This document shows, one piece after another, positions 6,952 to 31,729 of a stretch of DNA of 35,090 bases (positions within the stretch are counted from its first letter, which is position 1; each line of letters starts with the position of its first letter). This DNA is from an uncultured Candidatus Pelagibacter sp. Lineage in GTDB: Bacteria > Pseudomonadota > Alphaproteobacteria > Pelagibacterales > Pelagibacteraceae. The DNA lies in the NCBI GenBank assembly GCA_905618805.1, contig CAJQSZ010000055.1, forward strand, positions 1 to 35,090, written 5' to 3'. The notes beneath the pieces were generated by a model. That model was not told where the DNA came from. It worked only from the letters and a program-made list of their open reading frames with translations, and made no database searches. Position numbers and translations under genes: made by a program.

Positions 6952-7467
6952 ATGACTACAATAGTGCTTATTAGAAAAAATAATGAAGTAGTAGTAGCGG
7001 GTGATGGCCAAGTTAGTATGGGCAATACAGTTATAAAAAGTACTGCTGCAAAAGTTCGAAAGATTGAAAAAAGAAACGTGATTGCTGGATTTGCTGGCTC
7101 TACCGCAGACGCTTTAACTTTATTTGAAAGACTTGAAGCAAAACTTGAAAAGCATGCAGGGAACCTTCCTAGGGCAGCTGTTGAGCTAGCGAAAGATTGG
7201 CGAACTGATAAATATTTAAGAAGATTAGAAGCTTTAATGGCTGTTGGTGATAAACAAAATAGTTTTATAATTTCTGGTACTGGTGATGTGCTAGAACCAG
7301 AGGGTAACGCTATAGGTATAGGATCTGGTGGGAATTATGCTTTGGCTGCTGCTAAAGTTTTATTGGACACAGAATTAAGTGCAGAAGATGTTGCAAGAAA
7401 GGCTATCAAAGTTGCTTCTGAAATTTGTGTATTTACTAATGATAATATTAAAATTGAAAAAATTTAA
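6952..7467 (+). CDS. hslV: HslV peptidase of the HslUV protease
   Basis: HslV is the proteasome-like peptidase that degrades proteins unfolded by HslU in the cytoplasm. The protein is 171 residues. The sequence M-T-T-I-V places Thr 2 as the N-terminal nucleophile after Met removal, which fixes the start. The blocks [30 protein letters not shown] and [13 protein letters not shown] are typical. No Shine-Dalgarno is seen before the ATG. It overlaps hslU by one base. Confidence 0.97.
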
Positions 7468-12816: not shown

Positions 12817-13400
12817 TTATGGTTATTTAAATACTCTTTGATTTTTTTGACCGGCAAGCCCATTATAGTGTCCTCGTCTCCTTCTATTTTAGAAAATAAA
12901 GCTCTGCCCTCACCTTCTATTTGATAAACATTGTAAGCATATAACGCCTCATCACTTATTTTTGCTAAATACACTTTAAGCTCTTCATTGCTCATTTGTT
13001 TCATCGTCAAAGATGCTTTATCTGTATAGTTCCATATCATTGAACCACCTCTAGATATGCAGACTGAGCTAATTAGATAGTGAGTTTTCCCATTAAGTTT
13101 TTTCAATATTGTAAGTGCTTCTAATCTATCTTCTGGCTTTGAGATAATCTCACCATCTAAATCAATTACACTATCTGCGCCCAAAACTATTTCATCAGCA
13201 AATTTTTGACTGATCTTGTTTGCTTTAAGTTCTGCTAGGTTTTTTGAAATAATTGTTGGTGTTGCTTTTTCCTTTAATAGGCTTTCTTTAACACTGTCTT
13301 CATCAACATTTGAAGGTTTAACCATACAATTAATTTTATTTTTTTCTAAAATTTTTTTTCTTACTTCACTTCTTGAGGCAAGTATTATTTTATTAATCAT
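12813..13400 (-). CDS. maf: Maf-family nucleoside triphosphate pyrophosphatase
   Basis: Maf proteins hydrolyse dTTP, UTP and modified nucleotides to monophosphates and pyrophosphate. The 195-residue protein has the N-terminal IILASRSEVRKKIL block (phosphate-binding; usually LASgSprR), VLGADSVIDLDGEI with the catalytic Asp, and SKPEDRLEAL. The final IMGLPVKKI motif is also standard. It overlaps ppsR by eight bases and aroE by four. A maf gene adjoining aroE and coaE next to the origin is a shared alphaproteobacterial arrangement. Confidence 0.93.
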   Translation of the reverse strand: MINKIILASRSEVRKKILEKNKINCMVKPSNVDEDSVKESLLKEKATPTIISKNLAELKANKISQKFADEIVLGADSVIDLDGEIISKPEDRLEALTILKKLNGKTHYLISSVCISRGGSMIWNYTDKASLTMKQMSNEELKVYLAKISDEALYAYNVYQIEGEGRALFSKIEGDEDTIMGLPVKKIKEYLNNHK

Positions 13401-14217
13401 TATTTTTATATATTTCGTGTATTTTAATTATTGATGCTGCGGTTTCTTCAACTGACTTTCGAGTAACATCAATTGTTGGCCATTTATATTTTGCAAAGGT
13501 TTTTTTTGCCCACTCAACTTCTTCTTTAATTTTTTGTATGTCTGTGTAGCTAGTGTTTTCTCTTTCCTTAAGAGTCATCATCCTATTTTTTCGTACATCA
13601 ACCAATCTTTCTGCTTCTGTAGTTAGACAAACAACACAGGCCATTTGGGGATCCTTTTTTAGACTTTCGGGTATAGAACTTTCATTAACCAGTGGAATAT
13701 TTGAGGTTTTGAAACCTTTGTTTGCTAGATAAATTGATGTTGGGGTTTTACTTGTTCTGCTAACACCTAATAATATTAAATCAGATTTATATAATTCGCT
13801 TATTAAATTTCCATCATCATGATTCATTGTAAATTGAATGGCTTCTATTCTTTCGTAATATTCCTCGTTAAGTGCGTGCTGTCCGCTTGGAACGTGTGAG
13901 GCCTGTTGATTTAATAGTTTTGAAAAACTAAGTATTAAATTTCCCAAAACTCCGAAACAAGGAATTTTTTTTTCATCACTCTTATTTGATAAAAATTTTG
14001 CAAGACTGTTATCAACAATGGTGTATAAAATAATTGCATTATTGTTTTTTTTTGCTTCTTCAAGAATTTTAATAACCTGGTTTTCCGTTCTTGTAAAAAA
14101 ATAAGACCTAACATCATATTCGATATTTTTAAATTGTGCTTTGATGGCTAAAAAAACTCTATCTAATGTTTCTCCTGTTGAGTCCGATATTAGATATATT
14201 TGATATGTATTACCCAT
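13393..14217 (-). CDS. ppsR: Pyruvate,phosphate dikinase regulatory protein (DUF299 kinase-phosphorylase)
   Basis: This family switches PEP synthase or pyruvate,phosphate dikinase on and off by ADP-dependent phosphorylation and Pi-dependent dephosphorylation of a threonine. The 274-residue protein has IYLISDSTGETLDRV at the N-terminus and the nucleotide-binding GVSRTSKTPTSIYLANKG near 152-169. Which dikinase it controls cannot be seen here. The gene is the first of the leftward unit at the left side of the proposed origin, the position of the homologue RP001 in Rickettsia and of its counterpart in Caulobacter. Confidence 0.92.
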   Translation of the reverse strand: MGNTYQIYLISDSTGETLDRVFLAIKAQFKNIEYDVRSYFFTRTENQVIKILEEAKKNNNAIILYTIVDNSLAKFLSNKSDEKKIPCFGVLGNLILSFSKLLNQQASHVPSGQHALNEEYYERIEAIQFTMNHDDGNLISELYKSDLILLGVSRTSKTPTSIYLANKGFKTSNIPLVNESSIPESLKKDPQMACVVCLTTEAERLVDVRKNRMMTLKERENTSYTDIQKIKEEVEWAKKTFAKYKWPTIDVTRKSVEETAASIIKIHEIYKNND

Positions 14218-14418
14218 GAATAAAATGTTGATAATTAAGTATTATTTTTATCATTTTTTTAAAATTATAATGTCTTTTATTTTTCATTGTAAAACCAGTG
14301 TTTTATAAACATTAATAAACATGTGAACTGTAAATATACATTTTATCTAACAATATTAAAGAAAGACACAATTTGGTTAATAAACCTTATTTGTATAAAT
14401 TTTTAATTATTAATAAAC

Positions 14419-14427
14419 TGTGTATAA
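14419..14427 (-). promoter_or_regulatory. DnaA box (exact)
   Basis: The minus strand reads TTATACACA, an exact match to the DnaA consensus TTATNCACA. It lies 24 bases left of the second exact box and in the opposite orientation. Confidence 0.75.
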
Positions 14428-14451
14428 AACATGTAAAACAATTAATTACCA

Positions 14452-14460
14452 TTATTCACA
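14452..14460 (+). promoter_or_regulatory. DnaA box (exact), overlapping the hemE -35
   Basis: The plus strand reads TTATTCACA, an exact consensus DnaA box. Its last six bases are also the -35 hexamer of the hemE promoter candidate, so bound DnaA would compete with RNA polymerase. Confidence 0.75.
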
Positions 14461-14483
14461 TACTATATAACTAATACTATAAT
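14455..14483 (+). promoter_or_regulatory. Candidate hemE promoter
   Basis: TTCACA (14455-14460) and a perfect TATAAT (14478-14483) are spaced by 17 bases, the best sigma-70-like pair in the window. Transcription would start near 14490, giving a leader of about 13 bases. In Caulobacter a hemE promoter inside the origin is tied to replication control; the same use here is inference. Confidence 0.6.
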
Positions 14484-14502
14484 TAAATATTTACTTATTA
14501 TT

Positions 14503-15504
14503 ATGACACCCATTCAAGAAACTATAATAAATAAAAAGACAACTAACTCTCCAATATGGTTAATGAGACAAGCAGGAAGATATCTTCCAGAATTTAGAGA
14601 AATTAGAAAATTAAACCCAAACTTTATTAAGTTATGTTTGAATGAAAATTTATCGTCAGAGATTACTTTACAGCCTTTACGAAGATTTGAACTAGACGCT
14701 GCAATAATTTTCTCAGATATTTTAATGTTGCCTTATGGGTTAAATCAAAAAGTAGAATTTAAGAAAGATTTTGGTCCACAACTTGGCCCTCTAAATTTAA
14801 ATGAAATATTAAAAATTGATGAAGTTGATTTTATACAAAAATTATATCCAGTTTATAAATCGATAAAAAAAGTGAGTGAGAATAATTTAATTAAAAATAA
14901 AAACCTAATAGGATTTGTTGGAGCGCCTTGGACATTATTGGTTTACATGATTAATAAACACTCACCAAAAAAAGAATTAATAAAAGATTTTTTTAAAGAT
15001 GAATTTTTAATAAATCGAATTTTAATAATATTAGAAAAATTTTTAAAATTACATATTAATCACCAGATAAAAAATGGTGCAACTGTGATCCAGATTTTCG
15101 ATAGTTGGGCTGGGTTATTAGAAGAAAAAGATTTACCAAATTATATTTATATTCCAACATTAAATTTGGTTGATTATGTAAAATCACTAAACATACCTGT
15201 AATTTGTTTTCCAAGAGGCATAAAAAATTATAAAAATTATTGTGATATTGTTAAACCTGATGCTGTCAATATTGACTATGATGTAAATCCTGTTTCTATA
15301 TGTAAAGAAATTAATATACCTGTCCAAGGTGGACTTGACCCAAAGATATTATTAACTGATAAAGAAAATTTGAAAAAAGAAACAAGAAGATATCTAGATA
15401 TATTCAAAGATCATCCGTATATCTTTAATTTAGGCCATGGCGTATTGCCCCAAACAGATCCTAATATGGTGGACTATTTGGTGAAGATGGTAAAAGATTA
15501 TTAA
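14503..15504 (+). CDS. hemE: Uroporphyrinogen III decarboxylase
   Basis: HemE removes four carboxyl groups from uroporphyrinogen III to give coproporphyrinogen III in haem synthesis. The 333-residue protein has PIWLMRQAGRYLPEFRE near 18-34, FSDILMLPYGL with the catalytic Asp, GFVGAPWTLLVYMI, and the C-terminal FNLGHGVLPQTDP block. It is the first gene of the rightward block from the proposed origin. Its stop codon is directly followed by the hemH start with no spacer. Confidence 0.97.
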   Translation: MTPIQETIINKKTTNSPIWLMRQAGRYLPEFREIRKLNPNFIKLCLNENLSSEITLQPLRRFELDAAIIFSDILMLPYGLNQKVEFKKDFGPQLGPLNLNEILKIDEVDFIQKLYPVYKSIKKVSENNLIKNKNLIGFVGAPWTLLVYMINKHSPKKELIKDFFKDEFLINRILIILEKFLKLHINHQIKNGATVIQIFDSWAGLLEEKDLPNYIYIPTLNLVDYVKSLNIPVICFPRGIKNYKNYCDIVKPDAVNIDYDVNPVSICKEINIPVQGGLDPKILLTDKENLKKETRRYLDIFKDHPYIFNLGHGVLPQTDPNMVDYLVKMVKDY

Positions 15505-16539
15505 ATGAAAAAAGCAATTATTTTATTTAATCTTGGGGGTCCAGATAAATTAGAAAATGTTGAACCCTTTTTATTTAATTTATTTAATGACCCAGCAATT
15601 TTAGATCTACCAACTTTTTTAAGATATCCGTTAGCAAAACTAATCTCTAATAGAAGGGCACCTGTTGCAAAAAAAATTTATGCAGAACTGGGTGGCTCAT
15701 CACCCATATTAAAATTAACCAAAGAACAGTCTGATGCTCTAGAAATAAAACTAAATCAAACCCAAACAGAAGATGAATACAAGTGCTTCATCATAATGAG
15801 GTGCTGGAATCCTAGAGCTAAAGATGTGATTAAAGATGTTCAATTATATGGCCCAGACGAAGTTGTCTTAATGCCTCTTTATCCTCAATACTCTGCTGCA
15901 ACATCGGGGTCTTCAATTAAAGAATGGAAAGACGTTTGTAAAAAAAATAACTACCATGTTAAAACAAGCACAATATGCTGTTACCCAACAGACCAGAATT
16001 TTATTAACGCTCATACAAAAGAGATAATAAAGAAAATTAAAGATCTTAAAAACTTCAAATTGATATTTTCTGCACACGGCCTTCCAGAAAAAAATATTAA
16101 AAAGGGAGACCCCTATCAATGGCAAGTAGAACAATCGGTTCAAAAAATAGTTGAGAGTTTAAATGATGAGAACCTTGATTGGATATTGAGTTATCAAAGT
16201 CGAGTTGGTCCACTAAAATGGATAGGACCATCTACAGAAACTATAATTATTGAAAATTCCAAGATTGGCAAACATATCGTTTTAGTCCCTATCGCGTTTG
16301 TTTCCGAGCACTCAGAAACTCTCGTTGAGCTTGATATAGAATATAAAGAAATAGCAGATGCTAATGGATGTAAAAATTATACAAGAGTTCCAGCACTTGG
16401 AATTAATGAGGATTTTATCAAAGCAATGTCAGAATTAATAATTAAGAAAAACGAATATAAAATTAATGAGGATCTTTATCCACCAAAGATACAGTGTCCA
16501 TCTAATTTTAAAAAATGTCCCTGTTTAAATTATGAATAG
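15505..16539 (+). CDS. hemH: Ferrochelatase with C-terminal cysteine motif
   Basis: HemH inserts Fe(II) into protoporphyrin IX. The catalytic His is in FSAHGLPEK (His 191), and other family blocks are NLGGPDKLENVEPFL, PLYPQYSAATSGSS and WILSYQSRVGPLKWIGPST. The 344-residue protein ends with a cysteine group CPSNFKKCPC (331-340). Some alphaproteobacterial ferrochelatases carry a [2Fe-2S] cluster bound by C-terminal cysteines, so a cluster is possible here. The 3' end overlaps hemJ by eight bases. Confidence 0.96.
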   Translation: MKKAIILFNLGGPDKLENVEPFLFNLFNDPAILDLPTFLRYPLAKLISNRRAPVAKKIYAELGGSSPILKLTKEQSDALEIKLNQTQTEDEYKCFIIMRCWNPRAKDVIKDVQLYGPDEVVLMPLYPQYSAATSGSSIKEWKDVCKKNNYHVKTSTICCYPTDQNFINAHTKEIIKKIKDLKNFKLIFSAHGLPEKNIKKGDPYQWQVEQSVQKIVESLNDENLDWILSYQSRVGPLKWIGPSTETIIIENSKIGKHIVLVPIAFVSEHSETLVELDIEYKEIADANGCKNYTRVPALGINEDFIKAMSELIIKKNEYKINEDLYPPKIQCPSNFKKCPCLNYE

Positions 16540-16966
16540 TTATTTATTATTTAAGAGCCTACATTTAATATCAGTAATCTCATGGATGGCAGGACTCTTA
16601 TATTTACCCAGGATTTTCGTATACCACGTAGAAAATTTAAAAGATAAAAACACTTCTTCAGTATTTAAAACAATGGAAAGAAAATTATATTTTTACATCA
16701 TGACACCAGCAATGATTTTAACTTGGGTGTTCGGATTAATTTTAATTTCTTCTTTAGGCTTCGAAGTTTTTTCTGCAACTTGGATTAAACTAAAATTGTT
16801 GTTAGTGATTTTATTAACCTTATATCATTTCTATTTATCCAAACTTCTTAGTGATTTTAATTTGGATCAAAATATTAAATCTTCTAAGTTTTTTAGAATA
16901 ATCAATGAAGTACCAACAATATTGCTTATTTTGATTGTTTTTGTTGTTGTTTTTAAGCCTATCTAA
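16532..16966 (+). CDS. hemJ: Protoporphyrinogen oxidase HemJ
   Basis: HemJ (formerly UPF0093) is the membrane protoporphyrinogen IX oxidase used by bacteria that lack HemG and HemY. The 144-residue protein has four hydrophobic segments and the signature FKSLHLISVISWMAGLLYLPR with the conserved His 11, followed by FVYHVE. Standing directly after hemE and hemH, with an eight-base overlap, it completes the late haem steps encoded here. Confidence 0.93.
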   Translation: MNSYLLFKSLHLISVISWMAGLLYLPRIFVYHVENLKDKNTSSVFKTMERKLYFYIMTPAMILTWVFGLILISSLGFEVFSATWIKLKLLLVILLTLYHFYLSKLLSDFNLDQNIKSSKFFRIINEVPTILLILIVFVVVFKPI

Positions 16967-16968
16967 GC

Positions 16969-16996
16969 TTGTAATAGTTTAAAGAGTATATATATT
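16969..16996 (+). promoter_or_regulatory. Candidate rho promoter
   Basis: TTGTAA (16969-16974) and TATATT (16991-16996) are 16 bases apart, just after the hemJ stop. The leader would be about 35 bases and contains an unusual C-rich patch (CCTCCCCC) shortly before the rho ATG, with no Shine-Dalgarno. Confidence 0.3.
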
Positions 16997-17036
16997 TATC
17001 TCATCTTACAAAAATTTTAATAACCTCCCCCTACTC

Positions 17037-18305
17037 ATGAATATACAAGAACTTAAATTAAAATCATCTGAACAATTAATTACGCAAGCAGAAGAGCTTG
17101 GTATTGAAAATGCTAGCACACTAAGAAAACAAGAAATTTTATTTGCTATATTAAAAAAAGTAGCAGAAAAAGAAGAAATAACTGGTGCTGGAGTTTTACA
17201 GTTGCTTCAAGATGGGTTTGGTTTCTTAAGAGCAATGGAGTCAAATTATTTACCTGGGCCTGATGACGTTTATGTAAGTCCAAGTCAGATAAGAAAATTT
17301 GGTTTGAGAACCGGTGATACGGTTGAAGGTCCTGTTAGAGCTCCCAAGGAAGGTGAGAGATACTTTGCACTATTACAAGTAAGTAAAATAAATTTTGAAG
17401 AGCCTGAAAAAGCGCGTCATAAAATTGCGTTTGATAATTTAACCCCACTATATCCAGACAAACAAATGGTGATGGAAGTTGAAACAACCACGATAGAAAA
17501 AAAACCAGATTTAACTCCAAGACTAATCGACCTCGTGAGCCCAATTGGCAAAGGTCAAAGATCTATAATTATTTCACCTCCTAAAGCTGGCAAGACTATG
17601 ATTTTGCAGAGCATCGCAAACTCAATTGCTAAAAACTATCCAGATAGTTATTTAATGGTTTTATTAATTGATGAAAGACCAGAGGAAGTGACTGACATGC
17701 AAAGAACAGTTAAGGGAGAAGTAATAAGTTCTACATTTGACGAACCTGCCACAAGACACGTTGCTGTAGCAGAGATGGTAATTGAAAAAGCAAAAAGATT
17801 AACGGAACACAAAAAAGATGTCGTGATTTTATTGGATTCAATCACAAGATTAGGAAGAGCTTATAATGCTGTAATTCCAAGTTCAGGAAAAGTTTTAACA
17901 GGTGGTGTGGATGCAAATGCACTACAAAGACCAAAAAGATTTTTTGGTGCCGCAAGAAATATTGAAGAAGGTGGATCTTTAACAATTATTTCAACAGCGT
18001 TGATCGACACAGGAAGTAGAATGGATGAGGTTATTTTTGAAGAATTTAAAGGAACTGGAAATAGTGAAACGGTGCTTGATAGAAAAATTGCAGAAAAAAG
18101 AATATATCCAGCAATAGATATTACAAAGTCAGGAACAAGAAGAGAGGAATTGCTTTTTGATAAAGATGACCTTTCAAAAATGAATGTTCTTAGAAGAATT
18201 ATTGGTCCAATGGGCACGATGGATGCAATTGAATTTATTAACTCAAAACTTAAAGAAACAAAAAGTAATGCAGATTTCTTTAATTCAATGAATAAGCCCG
18301 CTTAA
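17037..18305 (+). CDS. rho: Transcription termination factor Rho
   Basis: Rho is the hexameric RNA helicase that ends transcription of untranslated RNA. The 422-residue protein has an N-terminal helical domain (1-45), and an RNA-binding cold-shock-like domain [15 protein letters not shown] with [20 protein letters not shown] (52-98). Its ATPase has Walker A PPKAGKTM (181-188), [13 protein letters not shown], Walker [16 protein letters not shown] and the Q/R-loop region. The ATG lacks a recognisable ribosome-binding site. Rho follows hemJ here as in other alphaproteobacteria. Confidence 0.98.
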
Positions 18306-18412
18306 TAACACTCCCTAAATAAGTTTTAATCCAGAAAAAAAGATGTATTTTATAAATAAATTTTATAGATAAATTTTAAATAAAAACTTAAAAAACCGTC
18401 TTCATTAACTTA

Positions 18413-20080
18413 ATGATAGAGCTAGATAACCAACAAAAAATAAAAATATTAAACTTATTTAACAGCAAAAGGTTTTCAGAACTTGAGATGGAAATAGAGT
18501 TAATTTCCAAAACTGGTGAGAGAAGCCCCTTCCTATCCAATTTACTTGGTGTGGCTAAAATCCAAAAAAAAACTCCAACTCAATTAGACTTTGAGAGTGC
18601 AATGGAACTTTTCAGAGAGGCGACAAAAGGTGATTCACTTTATGAGGATGCTCTTTGTAATTATGCTTTGTTAGGTCTAAAACTTAACAAGCATGAAGAG
18701 CCCTTTAAACTGTTAAAAAAATTTTTAAAAAAAGGTTACAAAGCAAAAACTTATCTGGTGCTAGCTAGAATATATTACATGATAGGAGAAATTAATGAGG
18801 CATTAGAACTTTTGAGATTTGTGATTGAAAAAAAGGAAGCAAGCATAGTGCCTGCAACTCATTTCTTGTCAGCACTAAATTATACAACAAAATATAATCA
18901 AAGCGATTACATAGAATTTTGTAAAAAAATTAATGAACAATTTAAACCAAATGATATTTCAAAATTAAAAAATTTTAATTTTGATAAAAAAACAGAAGTA
19001 CTTGAGATTGGATGGTTGTCTCCAGATTTTTGTAATCACGCAATAGCACAATATTTACTAGAAACTTTGGCGGAACTAAAAAAATACAATTTTAAATTAC
19101 ATGCATTTAATTTAAGAAATCCAAAAGGGTTTGATGAGATAACTAAAAAATATAAAAACATCTTTCATAGTTGGCATGATGTAAGTTTACTAACTGATTT
19201 TGAAATAGCAAATTTCATAAGAGAAAAAAAAATTCATTTTTTATTTGATTTAACGGGCTACTTTAAAGGAAACAGATTTAGAGTTTTAAAATATAAACCT
19301 GCACCAATCCAAATACTTTGGCTTGGTTATCTAAACACCACTGGAATTAAAGAAATTGACTACATCATTTCAGATCAAAATTTAATACACAAAGGAGAGG
19401 AAAAATTTTATTCTGAAAAAATAATTAAACCCTCAAAGATTTGGAACGCTCATTCAAAAATTAATTATAATTTAAAAGTTCAGGAACTACCGTTTAATAG
19501 AAATAATTTTTTTACTTTTGGGTGTCTTAACAATTCATCAAAGATATCAAAAGAAGTTATTAATGTATGGGGGAAAATTTTAGTAAGCGTAAAAAATTCT
19601 AGGCTTCTTTTAAAAGCAGTAAATAAAGATTCAGAAATTGCTTATAAAAAAATTTTAGAAAAACTAAATATTGAAAGTTCACGGATTATTTTTTTATCCG
19701 CAAAACCAAATAAAGTAGATCATTATAAAACTTATAATGATATAGATTTAGCATTAGACACATTTCCCTATCCTGGTGTAACAACTTCTTTCGAGGCTAT
19801 TTGGATGGGCGTTCCTGTTTTGACAATGAAAGGAGATAATTCAGTATCAAGGTGTGGTGAGAGCATAAATATCAATTTAGATTTAAAAAATTTTATTGCA
19901 AACAACCCTGAGGAATATGTAGATAAAGCTGTTTTGTTTTCAAAAAATAATGCTGAATTATCCAAAATTAGAAAATCTTTAAGAGAAAAAGCTTTAGCCT
20001 CTCCACTTTTTGATATTAAAAATTTTTCAAAGAATCTTTCTAACCAAATTAATAAAATTTGGCTAAATCACCCTAATTAA
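18413..20080 (+). CDS. TPR-containing GT41 (O-GlcNAc transferase/SPINDLY-type) glycosyltransferase
   Basis: A 555-residue protein with a degenerate TPR-like helical N-terminus (1-160) and a GT41 catalytic half. The catalytic part shows IGWLSPDFCNHAIAQYLLETL (199-219), FLFDLTGYFKGNRFR, YKPAPIQILWLGYLNTTGIKEIDYII (295-320), FGCLNNSSKIS with a Lys at the place of the nucleotide-contacting Lys of OGT, and LDTFPYPGVTTSFEAIWMGVPVLTM (about 447-473). GT41 enzymes transfer sugars, usually GlcNAc, to Ser/Thr of proteins; donor and target are unknown here. It sits between rho and mnmE, which are neighbours in many relatives, with gaps of about 100 bases on both sides, so it looks like an addition to this core block. 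Confidence 0.85.
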   Translation: MIELDNQQKIKILNLFNSKRFSELEMEIELISKTGERSPFLSNLLGVAKIQKKTPTQLDFESAMELFREATKGDSLYEDALCNYALLGLKLNKHEEPFKLLKKFLKKGYKAKTYLVLARIYYMIGEINEALELLRFVIEKKEASIVPATHFLSALNYTTKYNQSDYIEFCKKINEQFKPNDISKLKNFNFDKKTEVLEIGWLSPDFCNHAIAQYLLETLAELKKYNFKLHAFNLRNPKGFDEITKKYKNIFHSWHDVSLLTDFEIANFIREKKIHFLFDLTGYFKGNRFRVLKYKPAPIQILWLGYLNTTGIKEIDYIISDQNLIHKGEEKFYSEKIIKPSKIWNAHSKINYNLKVQELPFNRNNFFTFGCLNNSSKISKEVINVWGKILVSVKNSRLLLKAVNKDSEIAYKKILEKLNIESSRIIFLSAKPNKVDHYKTYNDIDLALDTFPYPGVTTSFEAIWMGVPVLTMKGDNSVSRCGESININLDLKNFIANNPEEYVDKAVLFSKNNAELSKIRKSLREKALASPLFDIKNFSKNLSNQINKIWLNHPN

Positions 20081-20180
20081 TAGTCGTGGTTATTAACTTA
20101 AAACAAATAAATAATTTAATAGACTTTATGAGTAAGTATTTTTTAGTTAATTAATTTTAAAATTTTGAGTATGATGACTT

Positions 20181-21512
20181 ATGACGATTTATGCTTTATC
20201 CACTGGCCCAGGAATATCGGGTGTTGCTATAGTAAGAGTTTCAGGACAGGATACAAAAAAAGTAATAAAATTATTAACTAAAAAAACAATTCCAGAGCCA
20301 AGAGTCGCAACATTAAGAAAAATCAATAAAACCAACACTTCTGAGCTTATAGATGAGGGTATAATATTGTGGTTTCCTGGGCCTGACAGCTACACAGGAG
20401 AAGATATGGCTGAATTCCATATACATGGTAGTAAAGCTGTAATTGATGCCCTTCACAAGTCTATTTCAGAGATTAAAGATTGTCGTTTAGCAGAAGCGGG
20501 TGAGTTTACAAAATTAGCATTCCAAAATGGAAAAATAAATTTACTCAAAGCAGAAAGTATTGCAGATTTAATTTCAGCAGAAACTGAAATTCAAAGACAA
20601 CAAGCAATAAATATAATGAATGGAAAAGCTGCAGAAAAATTTAATGAACTGAGAGAAAAACTTTTAAAAATTTTATCTCATGTAGAAGCTAAGATAGATT
20701 TTCCAGATGAGGATTTGCCAGAAGATATTTTAAAAAATATTAAAATAAAATCTAATGAAGTTTATTTAGAAATTAAAAAAATTTTAGAAGATGAAAAGGT
20801 TGGGGAGAGAATTAGAGAAGGTTTTAAAATTGCAATTATAGGACCAGCAAATGTTGGTAAATCAAGCTTGCTAAATCATCTTTCTAACCGAGATGTTGCT
20901 ATTGTCTCTGAAACAGCCGGAACCACCAGAGATGTAATTGAAACACATTTAAATATTGATGGCTATCCCGTCATCGTTTCTGATACTGCTGGGATTAGAG
21001 AATCTATAAACGAAATAGAAAAAAAAGGTATAAAATTAGCACTGGACAAAGCTGAAGATGCGGACTTAAAACTTATTGTAATTGATGCTAAAAAACCTGA
21101 ATTTAAAGGCACTTTGAGGGATATGATGGACGAAAATGCAATTCTTGTTATAAATAAATCGGACCTTTTAAATAGAGATCTAAGTACAGAAATTATAAAT
21201 TTTAATCACGTTTTGATTTCTGTTAAAGACAATCTCAATATTGATGGTTTAATTTTAGAGATAAAAAATAAATTAAAAAATAAATTTATTACTAGTAATG
21301 ACATTTTAATTACTCGAGAAAGACACCGACAGCATCTTGAACAAAGCTTAGGTTATCTAAAAAACTTTGAAGAAAAAAACCAAGCAGAAGATTTTGATAA
21401 AGCGGCCGAAGACCTACGATTAGCCACCAGACAACTTGGAATGATAGTTGGAAAGGTTGATGTTGAAGAAATTTTAGGTAGCATTTTTAGTGATTTTTGC
21501 ATTGGAAAATAA
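20181..21512 (+). CDS. mnmE: tRNA modification GTPase MnmE
   Basis: MnmE acts with MnmG to put a (carboxymethyl)aminomethyl group on the wobble uridine of certain tRNAs. The 443-residue protein has the folate-binding N-domain (TIYALSTGPGISGVAIVRVSG), a helical domain and an inserted G domain. The G domain shows G1 GPANVGKSS (221-229), GTTRD, DTAGIRE and NKSD. It ends in FCIGK, the required C-x-G-K C-terminus. mnmG follows after a 258-base gap. Confidence 0.97.
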   Translation: MTIYALSTGPGISGVAIVRVSGQDTKKVIKLLTKKTIPEPRVATLRKINKTNTSELIDEGIILWFPGPDSYTGEDMAEFHIHGSKAVIDALHKSISEIKDCRLAEAGEFTKLAFQNGKINLLKAESIADLISAETEIQRQQAINIMNGKAAEKFNELREKLLKILSHVEAKIDFPDEDLPEDILKNIKIKSNEVYLEIKKILEDEKVGERIREGFKIAIIGPANVGKSSLLNHLSNRDVAIVSETAGTTRDVIETHLNIDGYPVIVSDTAGIRESINEIEKKGIKLALDKAEDADLKLIVIDAKKPEFKGTLRDMMDENAILVINKSDLLNRDLSTEIINFNHVLISVKDNLNIDGLILEIKNKLKNKFITSNDILITRERHRQHLEQSLGYLKNFEEKNQAEDFDKAAEDLRLATRQLGMIVGKVDVEEILGSIFSDFCIGK

Positions 21513-21770
21513 ATAATATTATTTTTAATACTGTTTTTCCTTAAATAAGCTATATTTATCAACAAATTATATTTTAAAAATAAATACAGTTTTTAATAGT
21601 TTTTTGACACATTTTGAGCACTTATCGTTGATGAACAACACTTATTTTTCATATTTTCGAATATTTTAACATGGTTTTTTGCAATTTTTTATATTTATTA
21701 ACCATTAAAAATATATCAAAATTATTTACTCGCACCTTGTAAAAATTTGGATCAGTTATAAATTTAAGTT
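21513..21770. other. Non-coding region between mnmE and mnmG
   Basis: This is the second-longest gene-free stretch (258 bases). It holds two copies of CACTTAT (21619-21625 and 21639-21645) exactly 20 bases apart, with GTTG-ATGAA-CAAC (21627-21639) between them. A perfect TTGACA (21604-21609) lacks a good -10 at normal spacing. One one-mismatch DnaA box occurs at 21556-21564. A small hairpin ATATT-TTCG-AATAT lies at 21651-21664. I see no gene and no clear promoter for mnmG. Confidence 0.5.
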
Positions 21771-23642
21771 ATGAAAAAAAATTTGTCATTTGATGTTGTT
21801 GTAATAGGTGGAGGTCATGCGGGTTGTGAGGCTGCTGCAGCCTCTGCACGCCTTGGAGTTAACACCGCCTTATTTACGCACAAAATTGAAACCATAGGAG
21901 AAATGTCCTGTAATCCAGCGATAGGAGGTCTTGGCAAAGGTCATCTTGTTAGGGAGATAGATGCCTTAGATGGTGTAATGGGGGAAGTTGCAGATAAGTC
22001 AGGTATACAATTTAGATTGTTAAACAGAAGTAGAGGTCCTGCAGTTCAAGGACCCAGAACACAGTCTGATAGATTTTTATATCGTAAATATATGCAAGAA
22101 AAATTGTTAAACTACTGTAATTTAAACGTTTTTTCAGATCCAGTAATAAGATTTATTTTCCAAAAAAATACAATAAGTGGATTTGAAACTAAGCTAGGTA
22201 ATAAAATCTCATGTGGCAAGTTGATATTAACAACGGGTACCTTTTTAAATGGTTTAATTCACATTGGTGACAAAAAAACTCCTGCTGGTAGGTACGATGA
22301 GAAGCCATCAACAGGCTTAAGTGAGCAACTTGAAAAATATGACTTCAAGGTGGGAAGGCTTAAGACAGGAACGCCACCAAGGTTAGATGGTAGAACAATT
22401 AATTATGAAAATTTGGAAGAACAGTTTGCAGATGATGATCCCTACTTTTTTTCCTTTCTAACTAAAAAATCTTTGAACAAACAAGTTTCATGTCGAATGA
22501 CCTATACGAATGAAAAGGTTCATAAAATAATTCAAAAAAATTTAAATAAAAGTGCCATGTACTCTGGAAGCATTCAGGGGGTTGGACCAAGATATTGTCC
22601 CTCGATAGAGGATAAGATAGTAAAGTTTGCGGATAAGGATCGACATCAAATATATTTAGAACCAGAAGGGTTAAATGACCATACTATATACCCAAATGGC
22701 ATTTCAACCTCACTTCCAGAGCAGGTACAACAAGAAATATGTAATAATATCAATGGTTTAGAAAATGTTAAGATAATTAGACCAGGATATGCTATTGAAT
22801 ATGACTATATAGATCCTAGGGAGCTATTTTTAACACTTGAAACAAAAAAAATACATAATTTATATCTTGCAGGGCAGATAAATGGGACTACCGGTTATGA
22901 GGAAGCTGCAGCACAGGGTTTAATAGCAGGAATTAATGCTGCCTTATCTTTTAAAAAAGAGGAACCATTTATTTTAGATCGATCTGATGCCTATATAGGA
23001 GTTATGATAGATGACTTAGTAACAAAGGGTGTTGCTGAACCTTACAGAATGTTTACCTCAAGAGCCGAATACAGACTTAGTTTAAGAGCAGACAATGCTG
23101 ATCTACGTTTAACAAATAAGGGTATTGCTATTGGTTTAATATTTAAAAATAGGGAAAATATATTTAAAGATAAAGAATTAAAAATTAAATTAATATCAAA
23201 AAAAATGTTAGAATCATCTATAACGCCAACTAAAATTGATAAATTTGATATAAAAATTGCAAAAGATGGAGTATTAAGAACATCTAACGAAATATTAACA
23301 CAAAAGGGTGTTGATATGAAAAAAATAAGAGAAATATGGCCCAATATACCTTTTTTTGATAAAAAAATTGATGAACAGATAGAAATAAATGCACATTACA
23401 GAGGGTACCTTAAAAAACAAAAAGCTGATATATTAGCATTTAAAAGAGACGAAAATTTAATTATTCCTGATAAAGTTAATTATGATGATCTTTCAGGCCT
23501 TTCCAATGAAGTAAAGGCTAAATTCAAGCAAATAAAACCAAAAACCATGGGACAAGCACTTCGAATAGATGGAATAACACCAGCCGCTGTATATATTCTG
23601 TTGTCACATGTAAAAAGAAGGTCTATTAAGCTTATAGCTTAA
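21771..23642 (+). CDS. mnmG: tRNA uridine-5-carboxymethylaminomethyl modification enzyme MnmG
   Basis: MnmG (GidA) is the FAD- and NADH-dependent partner of MnmE. The 623-residue protein opens with [21 protein letters not shown], the dinucleotide-binding fold, followed by [37 protein letters not shown] and [21 protein letters not shown] with a conserved Cys. The C-terminal helical domain that binds MnmE is complete. Its stop shares one base with the rsmG start. Confidence 0.98.
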
Positions 23643-24283
23643 TGGAAGAAATTTTAAAAAAATATCCACTACTAAAAGATTATAATGTTCCACGTGAAAC
23701 ATTTATAGAGTTTGAAAGATTCATCACTATGCTCCAAAAGCGAAATGAAAAAATTAACATTATCAGCAGTGAAACTGCAAAAAATGACATAATCAGAACG
23801 CGACACATAGTAGATTCAGCACAAGTCATTGAATTTATTGATTTAAATAGTTATATAATAACAGATATAGGATCAGGTGGAGGTATGCCAGGGATAATAA
23901 TAGCAATTATGCTTAAAAACACTAAACATTTAGCAAAAATTCGCTTATACGAAAAAAGTCACCATAAAAGTGCTTTTTTAAGAGATGTGTCGAGAGATTT
24001 AAAAATAAATACTGAAATTATACAACAAAATATTTTTGAGGAACAAAATCTAGAGTCAGGTACAATAATGGTAAGAGCTTTTAAGCCCTTACCAATAGTT
24101 TTAGATGTAGTTTATAAAAATTTTAAGAGTTATAAAAATTTAATTTTATTTATGGGAAAAAATGGAGAAAAAATTTTAGAAGAAACTTTAAAAGATTGGG
24201 ATTTTGATTTCGAAAAGAAAAAAAGCATCACAAGTGAAGATTCATTTTTGTTAAATATAAAAAATATTAAAAAAAGATTATAA
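23642..24283 (+). CDS. rsmG: 16S rRNA (guanine527-N7)-methyltransferase RsmG
   Basis: RsmG (GidB) methylates N7 of G527 in 16S rRNA. The 213-residue protein has ITDIGSGGGMPGIIIAI, the SAM-binding glycine loop (about 77-93), and VRAFKPLPIVL in place of the usual SRA block. Residues NVPRET near 16-21 are encoded by a parS site, as in other bacteria where this segment is constrained by the centromere. One-base overlap with mnmG; parA follows after six bases. Confidence 0.95.
   Translation: MEEILKKYPLLKDYNVPRETFIEFERFITMLQKRNEKINIISSETAKNDIIRTRHIVDSAQVIEFIDLNSYIITDIGSGGGMPGIIIAIMLKNTKHLAKIRLYEKSHHKSAFLRDVSRDLKINTEIIQQNIFEEQNLESGTIMVRAFKPLPIVLDVVYKNFKSYKNLILFMGKNGEKILEETLKDWDFDFEKKKSITSEDSFLLNIKNIKKRL
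23686..23701. other. parS centromere site inside rsmG
   Basis: The 16 bases TGTTCCACGTGAAACA differ at one position from the palindromic parS consensus TGTTTCACGTGAAACA. The site lies at the 5' end of rsmG, about 0.6 kb before parA, and roughly 9.2 kb from the proposed origin. ParB encoded at 25084-25932 would load here. I found no second copy in the window. Confidence 0.9.
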
Positions 24284-24289
24284 ATTAGA

Positions 24290-25084
24290 ATGCAGATTAT
24301 TTCAGTAATAAATCAAAAGGGTGGGGTAGGAAAAACAACTACAGTAATTAATCTTGCAGCAGGTTTAGTACACCAAGAAAAGAAAGTTTTAGTAATAGAT
24401 CTAGATCCACAAGGAAATGCAACTACAGGACTTGGCTTATCCAATTTAGAAAATTCAAGTGAAACAATCTATGGGGTTCTGAATGGGACAAAAACTATTT
24501 CAGATGTAATTAAGAAAACAGATTATAAAAACTTGGATATAGTGAGTTCTAACGTCGATTTGTCTGGACTAGAGATCGAGACAGCTGGAGATAGTGAAAG
24601 AGCCTTTATACTCAAGGGTAAATTAACCGCTTATTTGAATGATTCTAGAGGATCCTATGATTATATACTCATAGACTGCCCTCCTTCATTAAGTCTTATT
24701 ACAGTCATGGCGCTAGTGTCATCGCACTCACTTGTTGTACCACTACAAACAGAGTTTTTCGCATTAGAGGGACTAACTCAACTAATGAAAACAATAGAAA
24801 GAATAAAGGTAAGTTTAAATCCTCAATTACAAATAAGAGGAATTCTTTTAACGATGTATGACAAAAGAAATAAACTTTCTGCACAAGTGGAAAAAGAAGC
24901 AAGAGACTATTTTAATGATAAAGTTTATCAGACAGTTATACCAAGAAATGTAAGATTGTCAGAAGCTCCTTCACACGGAATGCCAGTCTTAATTTATGAC
25001 AAATTTTGTCTGGGTAGTAAATCTTATTTTAGTTTTACTGATGAGTTTATTAATCAAGAACAAAAAATAGCAAGAAAGGTATAA
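24290..25084 (+). CDS. parA: Chromosome partitioning ATPase ParA
   Basis: ParA is the DNA-binding ATPase that drives segregation of ParB-parS complexes after replication. The 264-residue protein lacks an N-terminal HTH, as chromosomal ParAs do. It starts MQIISVINQKGGVGKTTT, the deviant Walker A with its signature lysine, followed by LVIDLDPQGNATTGLG and YILIDCPPSLS (Walker B). The stop overlaps the parB start by one base. Confidence 0.97.
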   Translation: MQIISVINQKGGVGKTTTVINLAAGLVHQEKKVLVIDLDPQGNATTGLGLSNLENSSETIYGVLNGTKTISDVIKKTDYKNLDIVSSNVDLSGLEIETAGDSERAFILKGKLTAYLNDSRGSYDYILIDCPPSLSLITVMALVSSHSLVVPLQTEFFALEGLTQLMKTIERIKVSLNPQLQIRGILLTMYDKRNKLSAQVEKEARDYFNDKVYQTVIPRNVRLSEAPSHGMPVLIYDKFCLGSKSYFSFTDEFINQEQKIARKV

Positions 25085-25932
25085 TGGATACTAATAAAAT
25101 AAAGAAAGGGCTAGGTCGTGGACTATCATCATTAATAGGTGAGACAAAAGTAAAATCAAATATTAATAAATTACCCATAAGCGACTTACTTAGTAATAAA
25201 TTTCAACCAAGGAAAATATTTGATAAAGATAATTTACAAGATTTAACGAATTCAATAAAAGAAAGGGGAATTATTCAACCCATCATAGTTAGAGAATCTG
25301 CAAATCATAATTCTAAGTATGAAATAATAGCAGGAGAGAGAAGGTGGTTGGCAGCTCAAAAAGCAGGCTTGCACGAAGTGCCAGTAGTAATTACAAATGT
25401 TAATGATTTAAAATCTTTAGAGTTTGCTATCGTTGAAAATGTTCAAAGGCAAGGTTTAAACGCCATCGAAGAAGCCAGAGGTTATCAACGTTTAATCGAA
25501 GAATTCTCATATGATCAAGAAAAAGTAGCACAATTTATTGGAAAAAGTCGAAGTCATATAACAAATTGTTTAAGAATATTAAACTTGCCAGAAGAAGTTT
25601 TAAAGCTAGTAGAGAATAACAAATTATCAGCAGGGCACGCTAAAATTTTAGTTGGACTAAATAATATTGAATTTATTGTTAAAAAGATAATAGAAAAAAA
25701 TCTCTCAGTTAGACAAACAGAAAATCTTGTTAGAATTTTTAAAATAAAAAAACAAACGTTTAAATCACTAAAAGATCCAAACCTGAAGGTTCTTGAATTA
25801 TCAATTATTGAGAAAATTGGTTTAAATGTTTTAATTAAGAATAAAAAAAATAATACAGGATCTTTAATAGTTGAGTATAAAGACCTTGATCAATTAAACA
25901 AAATCATTGAAATAATTAAGTCTAACTACTAG
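25084..25932 (+). CDS. parB: Chromosome partitioning protein ParB
   Basis: ParB is the CTP-dependent clamp that loads at parS. The 282-residue protein begins with a ParA-stimulating basic segment (KKGLGRGLSSLIGE), and has FQPRKIFD and the CTP-binding YEIIAGERRWLAAQKAGL block. The HTH EKVAQFIGKSRSHITNCLRIL that reads parS follows, and then a C-terminal dimerisation domain. Its last 11 bases overlap the end of the convergent holA. Confidence 0.97.
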   Translation: MDTNKIKKGLGRGLSSLIGETKVKSNINKLPISDLLSNKFQPRKIFDKDNLQDLTNSIKERGIIQPIIVRESANHNSKYEIIAGERRWLAAQKAGLHEVPVVITNVNDLKSLEFAIVENVQRQGLNAIEEARGYQRLIEEFSYDQEKVAQFIGKSRSHITNCLRILNLPEEVLKLVENNKLSAGHAKILVGLNNIEFIVKKIIEKNLSVRQTENLVRIFKIKKQTFKSLKDPNLKVLELSIIEKIGLNVLIKNKKNNTGSLIVEYKDLDQLNKIIEIIKSNY

Positions 25933-30593: not shown

Positions 30594-30702
30594 GGTATTT
30601 TTACAACAAATACCTATAAAAGGGAAGAAAGTAGATAATAATTAACTTTTATCTTAAATTAAAAGTAAATTATCAGAATTCATATATGAAAAACAATAAC
30701 AA

Positions 30703-30707
30703 AAGGA
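30703..30707 (+). promoter_or_regulatory. Ribosome-binding site deciding the porin start
   Basis: AAGGA lies five bases before the ATG at 30713. An in-frame ATG at 30686 has no such site, so translation most likely begins at 30713. Confidence 0.6.
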
Positions 30708-30712
30708 AAAAC

Positions 30713-31729
30713 ATGAATAACTTTAAAAAAGTAGGTTTAACAGCTTTAGCTGGTTCTCTTGCTGCCTTATCAGCTCACGCAGCTGAAATGGGAGTATCTG
30801 GTGCTACTGTGTTAACTTATACAAGTGAAGATGGTACAGAAGTAACTGGTAACCCATTAGGAATGAAAACTAATCTAAGCTTTAAAGCTTCAGGTGAAGT
30901 TAACGGATACACAGTATCTTACATGCAAACAAGTGCAGATCAATTTGCTGGTATGTCATCAGCTAGATTGTCTGTTGATATGGGTGATCTAGGTTTAATA
31001 GCATTTGACCAAGGTTCAGGATCAGGACTTGCAACTATCGATGATAAAACACCGACTGCTGCAGAAGAAATTTGGGATGGTCTTGATGGTGCTGGAGCAT
31101 CTACTACTTCAGTAGGTGGTTTAGTTGGTACAGCTGGTAATTCAGGTGTAGTTAACTACGTTAAATCATACGCTGGTATCAAATTCAATGGTGCTTGGAG
31201 AAAAGGTGCGGGTGTAAATCTCTCTGACGGTTCTTCAGGTGGAAACTCAGAAGGAGCTTGGGACTTTGCAATAACTGGAAGTGGATCTTCATTTGGTATA
31301 TCTGAATTAGAAGGTTTATCTATGGGTGCTGGTTATGGTGAAGCTTCATCAGGTACTGCTGCTGGTACTCAAAGTGGTGATGATGTGCATATGACTGCAT
31401 TTGCTAACTACTCTATGGGTCCAGTATCATTTGGTGTTCAAGTGTCTGATTTAAACCGTAACGCAAAAGGTGTTGCTGGTGAAGAAGCAGTTGCTTGGGG
31501 ACTTGCTGTGAATATTAACGAAGATCTTTCTGTATCATACGGAGAGAGAGAAGTTAATTACACACATGCTTCAGCTAGTGCCATTAAAGAAAAAGGTGAT
31601 GGTATTGCTGTAGCTTACACTATGGGTTCAATGAAAATTGCTGGAAACCGTAATGAAGTTGATAACAATGGTGGAGTTTCGAACGCAAAAGATTCAATGA
31701 CAGAAATCGCTGTTTCATTTGCATTCTAA
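30713..31729 (+). CDS. Outer-membrane porin-like beta-barrel protein
   Basis: The 338-residue product begins MNNFKKVGLTALAGSLAALS with signal peptidase site SAHA|AEMG. The mature part is rich in Gly, Ser, Ala and Thr with alternating beta-strand patterns, and ends in EIAVSFAF, the C-terminal phenylalanine signature recognised by the BAM complex. It fits the Gram-negative porin type seen in SAR11. G+C is visibly higher than in neighbours and codons are even, as expected for a highly expressed gene; it has the only strong Shine-Dalgarno plus intrinsic terminator pair in the window. A start at 30686 would add nine residues. Confidence 0.85.
   Translation: MNNFKKVGLTALAGSLAALSAHAAEMGVSGATVLTYTSEDGTEVTGNPLGMKTNLSFKASGEVNGYTVSYMQTSADQFAGMSSARLSVDMGDLGLIAFDQGSGSGLATIDDKTPTAAEEIWDGLDGAGASTTSVGGLVGTAGNSGVVNYVKSYAGIKFNGAWRKGAGVNLSDGSSGGNSEGAWDFAITGSGSSFGISELEGLSMGAGYGEASSGTAAGTQSGDDVHMTAFANYSMGPVSFGVQVSDLNRNAKGVAGEEAVAWGLAVNINEDLSVSYGEREVNYTHASASAIKEKGDGIAVAYTMGSMKIAGNRNEVDNNGGVSNAKDSMTEIAVSFAF

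Follow-up and report, generated by a model that had tools for sequence, protein, structure and literature searches.

Where does replication of the SAR11 (Pelagibacter) chromosome begin, and does the short AT-rich interval that separates ppsR from hemE in this DNA serve as that site? SAR11 bacteria are among the most abundant cell types of the ocean, and with a pinned origin, the metagenomic coverage of origin relative to terminus could serve as a readout of their growth. A first-pass annotation of the 35,090-nucleotide stretch analyzed here (the window) had proposed a probable SAR11-type origin in this interval, a proposal that is now supported by the strand skew of relatives, the conserved gene layout, and the enrichment of DnaA boxes. 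We predict that positions 14218-14502 are very probably the chromosomal replication origin of this genome. The literature searched, whose scope excluded most subscription papers and bioRxiv, contained no description of a SAR11 origin, its architecture, phase-locked spacing within it, or its apparent lack of CtrA control.

The proposed oriC is the ppsR-hemE intergenic interval (14218-14502), identified by the gap and boxes in the window and by the skew of relatives. It is bounded on the left by ppsR (13393-14217, minus strand), a member of the pyruvate phosphate dikinase/PEP synthase regulator family (NF003742.0, 297.8 bits, cut-off 225), and on the right by hemE (14503-15504, plus strand), encoding uroporphyrinogen decarboxylase (TIGR01464.1, 308.6 bits, cut-off 302.95), both names being taken from NCBIfam models above cut-off. 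As originally claimed, the 285-bp interval is the longest gap in the window between open reading frames of at least 80 amino acids, the runner-up measuring 258 bp (21513-21770), and gene blocks point away from it on both sides, on the minus strand from 14217 back to 10738 and on the plus strand from 14503 to 25932. Its AT content, 84%, exceeds the 71% of the window as a whole. Searches for an RNA gene or tRNA inside 14218-14502 were negative with ARAGORN, which found no tRNA in the whole window, and with Rfam models, none of which reached the gathering threshold within 13300-22000. Positions 14000-14700 had no blastn match in the phage collection.

The position of this interval between hemE and ppsR, which we take to be COG1806, has precedents. 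The accessible portion of PMC1914354 places both the Caulobacter origin (Cori) and that of Rickettsia prowazekii in the hemE/COG1806 interval, and, as far as they are described there, SAR11 has in common with them the same flanking genes, an AT-rich gap, and DnaA boxes. Both the gene interval and a candidate DnaA-box cluster within an AT-rich gap, as in origins of the hemE/COG1806 type, were found in the window. In a class-wide survey, for which 150 of 163 hemE matches were usable, hemE and ppsR were divergent within 3 kb in 114 of the 124 alphaproteobacterial genomes that had both genes among the matches listed (193 genomes), a result that bears out the earlier claim of a location conserved across the Alphaproteobacteria and with which the Caulobacter interval, as given in that portion of PMC1914354, agrees. 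The median gap between the hemE and ppsR matches across the class was 479 bp. The ten exceptions comprise seven genomes with the genes on different contigs, one (G259) in which the pair seems to lie across the start of the record, and two (G203 and G277) with divergent genes 3.7 and 6.2 kb apart.

At closer range, 101 genomes were searched for hemE and 87 were positive, 52 of the same genus and 35 of a second family. Nine same-genus genomes yielded no hemE match and the partial hits in G038 and G058 were excluded; the same-genus set (n = 51) consists of 50 full-length hemE hits and G254. The ppsR-interval-hemE layout was present in all 51 same-genus intervals, with gaps of 261-285 bp, and in 76 of the 80 SAR11 loci taken from named records. 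Removal of four named-record intervals identical to earlier ones left 72 that were new and distinct, giving a pooled set of 123 intervals (51 plus 72), all distinct. Among the four named loci that gave no ppsR match, three stop close to hemE; the fourth, L228, has a full flank in which ppsR is not matched, and it keeps the anchor box described below. The comparison among SAR11 genomes suggested at the outset was favorable to the original proposal, since both the layout and the box positions are kept. The description of the origin as very compact is fair, but it does not set this genome apart, since intervals of 261-286 bp are usual in the genus.

Two exact matches to the DnaA box TTWTNCACA lie within the interval, at 14419-14427 (minus strand) and 14452-14460 (plus strand), in opposite orientation and with 24 bases between them, exactly as first reported. 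One-mismatch boxes number four rather than the three initially counted, at 14226 (minus), 14303 (plus), 14390 (minus), and 14421 (minus), the last of which overlaps an exact box. The first of these, TTATCAACA (14226-14234), matches 7 of 8 positions in the box scan, and the start codon of ppsR is 8 bp away; a box matching at least 6 of 8 positions is found at this left-edge offset in 101 of the 123 intervals. The box scan also gave TTATACAAA at 14390-14398 on the minus strand. The plus-strand box TTATAAACA at 14303-14311 (7/8), hereafter the left box, keeps its distance to the anchor box in helical steps. The window as a whole shows no enrichment of exact boxes (5 found, 6.48 expected). The ppsR-hemE intervals of the 51 relatives contain 1.18 exact boxes each, versus 0.08 in dinucleotide shuffles; at least one is present in 44 of the 51 and none in the other 7. 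Among the 191 gaps of at least 100 bp in the complete genome G012, the interval leads in exact-box count, and by relaxed-box count it ties for first with a gap at 618614-619099 near the terminus and skew maximum. That second gap holds three relaxed DnaA boxes and no exact one; it is perhaps terminus-related, perhaps a product of chance.

Strand skew was read in relatives only, because the draft genome from which the window derives is 64% complete and split into 58 contigs. Within the window itself, raw cumulative GC skew is lowest at 6959 (-211), versus -164 at 14360 in the interval. The cumulative GC skew of G012 reaches its maximum at 616 kb, and its minimum is broad, falling at 1291 kb in the raw curve and at 1231 kb after detrending. 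A gene-strand-corrected fit of third-position GC skew, in which leading strands were taken as G-rich and the equivalent C-rich mirror solution was set aside, placed the G012 origin at 1270 kb. The set within 2 lnL units spans 1245-1320 kb and includes the interval (1261.9-1262.2 kb); TA3 skew alone did not locate the origin in this genome. For the complete genome G254, of which 39 of 60 stretches of 20 kb were sampled, the interval, at 66.8-67.1 kb, falls within an origin set of 10-150 kb. For the complete genome G172, which belongs to another genus of the same family and of which 20 stretches were sampled, the fitted origin is at 140 kb, the terminus at 780 kb, and the interval at 141.3-141.7 kb, the set within 2 lnL units also including 1170-1190 kb. 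The interval lies at or near the strand-skew switch in all three complete relatives, and their strand-corrected skew, a form of the check that the first-pass annotation had recommended, is compatible with an origin at the ppsR interval.

The resolution of this skew is tens of kilobases, which gives some room to the alternative that the true origin lies nearby, at dnaA, before mnmG, or in the parABS cluster, and that the interval is a DnaA-titrating or regulatory locus. In G012, dnaA is 62 kb from the interval and mnmG about 5 kb, and parB, parA, and a parS-like site all lie within 10 kb; with up to 2 mismatches allowed, that genome has a single parS-like site, at position 1254719, which is 7 kb away from the interval and likewise close to rsmG-parA. 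In the window, parA and parB (24290-25932, plus strand; ParA-type ATPase matches below cut-offs, ParB domain TIGR00180.1 at 192.7 bits, cut-off 58.45) stand 10-12 kb to the right of the interval, and a motif match identified a parS-like site with one mismatch, TGTTCCACGTGAAACA, within rsmG (23686-23701, plus strand). The two rival sites named at the outset fared poorly: the G012 dnaA (1198-1200 kb) is outside the 1245-1320 kb set and the surrounding 1197-1202 kb contains no exact DnaA box, nor does the gap before mnmG in the window, whereas the ppsR-hemE gap is the one that leads the 191 gaps of G012 in exact boxes. An origin displaced to one of these neighbors is very unlikely.

A second alternative is that the interval is a divergent ppsR/hemE promoter region, possibly regulated by DnaA, with no origin function. 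It does sit between divergent genes, and in 39 of 51 intervals (those with a relaxed box there) only 46-53 bp separate the anchor box from hemE. G172 separates the origin from the gene promoter. In this genome hemE-hemH lies far from the interval, at 718-720 kb (G172:C1:718091-720072) near the fitted terminus, and at the origin locus (L136), at 141 kb, 353 bp separate ppsR from rho. The skew origin nonetheless stays at the ppsR-rho interval, an origin at 720 kb fitting 8 lnL units worse than one at 140 kb, and this speaks against the interval being no more than a hemE promoter. No exact box occurs in the 700 bp preceding the distant hemE. The second family departs from the promoter reading in another way. 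In the 12 of its 35 hemE loci that were read, the fetched upstream stretch gave no ppsR match and held maf (tblastn), yet box-like sites persist before hemE, with at least two CTA triplets in 9 of the 12 by eye, five in tandem. A promoter region without origin function is, on this evidence, highly improbable. The G172 hemE scores below the family cut-off, and its replacement by another copy is possible.

As a predicted origin, the interval has a defined internal anatomy. Intervals were anchored on their last plus-strand box, which was found in 50 of 51 same-genus and 122 of 123 pooled intervals and which in the window is the exact box TTATTCACA at 14452-14460. Mean minus-strand box scores over the 50 anchored same-genus intervals peak exactly at -44, -33, and -22 from the anchor, with values of 6.44, 6.12, and 6.34 of 8 (median 3.05). 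In the window, these offsets correspond to three minus-strand sites: TTATTAATA at 14408-14416 (6/8), the exact DnaA box TTATACACA at 14419-14427 (8/8, recognized by exact match as well as by anchored scores), and TTTTACATG at 14430-14438 (6/8), which reads TTTTACACA in the close relatives L005 and L006. The window scores at -44 and -22 are thus only 6 of 8. Among the 72 later intervals, which had not been used for pattern discovery, scores of at least 6/8 were obtained at -44, -33, and -22 in 67, 57, and 65. The assignment of these positions as DnaA sites is supported by the occurrence of exact boxes at them in 7, 2, and 14 of the anchored intervals. Genome-wide in G012, the interval scores highest for the four-site layout (26 of 32, the next locus scoring 25).

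These intervals are related and their length classes require only six changes on the tree, which accords with a third explanation, that the conserved sites are AT-rich sequence common by descent rather than selected protein sites. The same three peaks, however, are found among 19 intervals that are less than 70% mutually identical (6.37, 6.00, and 6.16, versus a median of 3.00), and exact boxes in these 19 number 1.16 per interval versus 0.07 in shuffles. Common descent without selection is scarcely credible as an account of the sites. In the same 19 intervals, a relaxed pattern gave a weak same-strand spacing signal, at spacing 22 only (4 pairs), and the array became clear after anchoring.

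The conserved sites form same-orientation 9-mers two bp apart, all candidate DnaA sites, and in this they resemble a phased low-affinity array. In E. coli oriC, as described in the available part of PMC4451416, low-affinity arrays consist of same-orientation weak 9-mers exactly two bp apart beside a strong site, and the SAR11 array has the same orientation, the same two-bp separation, and an adjoining strong site. Compared with that description, SAR11 has one array of three sites, no second one having been recognized on the left, whereas E. coli has two arrays of four, and the site letters differ, with a SAR11 consensus close to TTATTAACA.

The distance between the left box and the anchor follows a second regularity. 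In the 100 of 123 intervals with a left plus-strand box of at least 7/8 (the 23 without such a box being excluded), this distance is 126-128 in 11, 135-139 in 26, 146-151 in 62, and 158 in one, and among spacing periods from 4 to 20 the best fit is 10.6 bp (R 0.90). The distance changes by about one helical turn per step, and two simple promoters would need no such phase-locked spacing over 127-158 bp. The spacing classes require 6 changes on a FastTree tree, that is, few independent events, and the evidence for helical locking is for this reason suggestive rather than strong. That the left box keeps helical phase with the anchor suggests that two clusters of DnaA meet across a bent loop.

Beyond the anchor on the plus strand lies a DnaA-trio-like ladder, CTA-ATA-CTA (14471-14479; 3'-GAT-5' on the other strand), assigned by triplet phase and by the trio consensus given in the accessible text of PMC8287927 and PMC10721633. 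Within 25 nt past the anchor in 122 intervals, 185 of 218 CTA triplets occur in one phase, with starts at 4, 7, 10, 13, 16, or 19, and 24 of the 33 off-phase triplets are at position 2; in the window, the triplets at 14471 and 14477 are in phase and that at 14463 is out of phase. The proposed DNA unwinding element (14464-14503) is the least stable 40-mer of the window and ends on the first base of hemE, and its G012 counterpart is within the least stable 0.05%, 600 other 40-mers being less stable. As in the basal unwinding system (BUS) outlined in those portions of PMC8287927 and PMC10721633, the SAR11 interval has a strong box, CTA (3'-GAT-5') triplets within the expected distance, and an AT-rich stretch; it differs from that outline in the imperfect ladder of the genus (CTA-ATA-CTA in the window), and the window shows no evident second tandem box or GC-rich spacer. 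Because the strict three-trio pattern, CTA-NTW-NTW within 28 nt, occurs in 16 of 50 intervals versus 2.6 expected, the BUS label is likely for the SAR11 interval but not proven. The ladder of the second family looks more classical than that of the genus. In its loci L102-L113, with maf beside the putative origin, clearer DnaA-trio repeats precede hemE, such as CTACTACTACTA.

The anatomy is nearly fixed over the 123 distinct intervals: three weak sites, a strong opposite box, a CTA ladder, and an AT-rich stretch leading into hemE. The 11-bp array, the ladder, and the unwinding stretch, like parA/parB and the parS-like site, had gone unremarked in the first-pass annotation. Judged from its motifs, the architecture is that of a putative E. 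coli-style 11-bp low-affinity array joined to a predicted DnaA-trio unwinding element.

The reports on the Caulobacter and Rickettsia origins, as covered in PMC1914354, stress CtrA and IHF sites. By comparison with the type described there, no CtrA model match accompanies the SAR11 interval, which in the window lacks GANTC and is shorter than the class median gap. A CtrA model gave no match above cut-off in any of 5 genomes and passed cut-off in 1 of 14 controls; it is named for the Rhodobacterales and might therefore overlook a distant CtrA. All three full response regulators of G012 resemble non-CtrA families most closely, the first matching PhoB above cut-off, and the same genome has three HU/IHF-family genes. 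Neither GANTC nor an exact CtrA-type TTAA-N7-TTAA occurs in the window interval. The accessible part of PMC3973325 names SAR11 as an exception, in wording that is ambiguous as to a CcrM homolog. As TTAA-N7-TTAA also has an 11-bp pitch, the possibility that the array doubles as CtrA sites was considered and dropped: TTAA-N7-TTAA occurs in 44 of 123 intervals, and a spacing of 7 is not favored (N3 87, N5 81, and N10 64, versus N7 51).

From this arrangement we infer how DnaA binding, its order of assembly, unwinding, and initiation would proceed at the interval. DnaA would occupy the strong anchor box (14452-14460), and DnaA-ATP would fill the three weak same-orientation sites (14408-14438), which at an 11-bp pitch would lie on one helix face, until it met the anchor. 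A DnaA filament would then step from the anchor in threes along one strand of the CTA ladder and open the AT-rich stretch at 14464-14503, where the helicase would load. With the left box at 14303 in helical phase with the anchor, two DnaA clusters may touch via a bent loop. We offer as a tentative generalization, somewhat short of probable, that the SAR11 origin is a minimal one, run by DnaA without CtrA or GANTC methylation control, that fuses a phased array and a trio element in 260-286 bp, its clusters on one face and its loop evolving by whole turns. The location could have been predicted from the Caulobacter and Rickettsia origins; the anatomy, the helical locking, and the apparent absence of CtrA control seem to be the new part. 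The fixed anatomy provides a concrete model of initiation for an alphaproteobacterium seemingly without CtrA control, and a single-change prediction follows from each of three features: the array of three sites, the triplet ladder, and the helical spacing.

Other features of the neighborhood were also recorded. A short winged-helix protein without a receiver match is encoded about 18 kb from the predicted origin (L188 in G012, about 1244.4-1244.9 kb; about 85 kb in G254), and at about 28 kb in G172. In the window, a 347-amino-acid open reading frame at 30686-31729 has no Pfam match at E 0.001, and a family-41 glycosyltransferase-like gene (PF13844) lies between rho and mnmE at 18413-20080.
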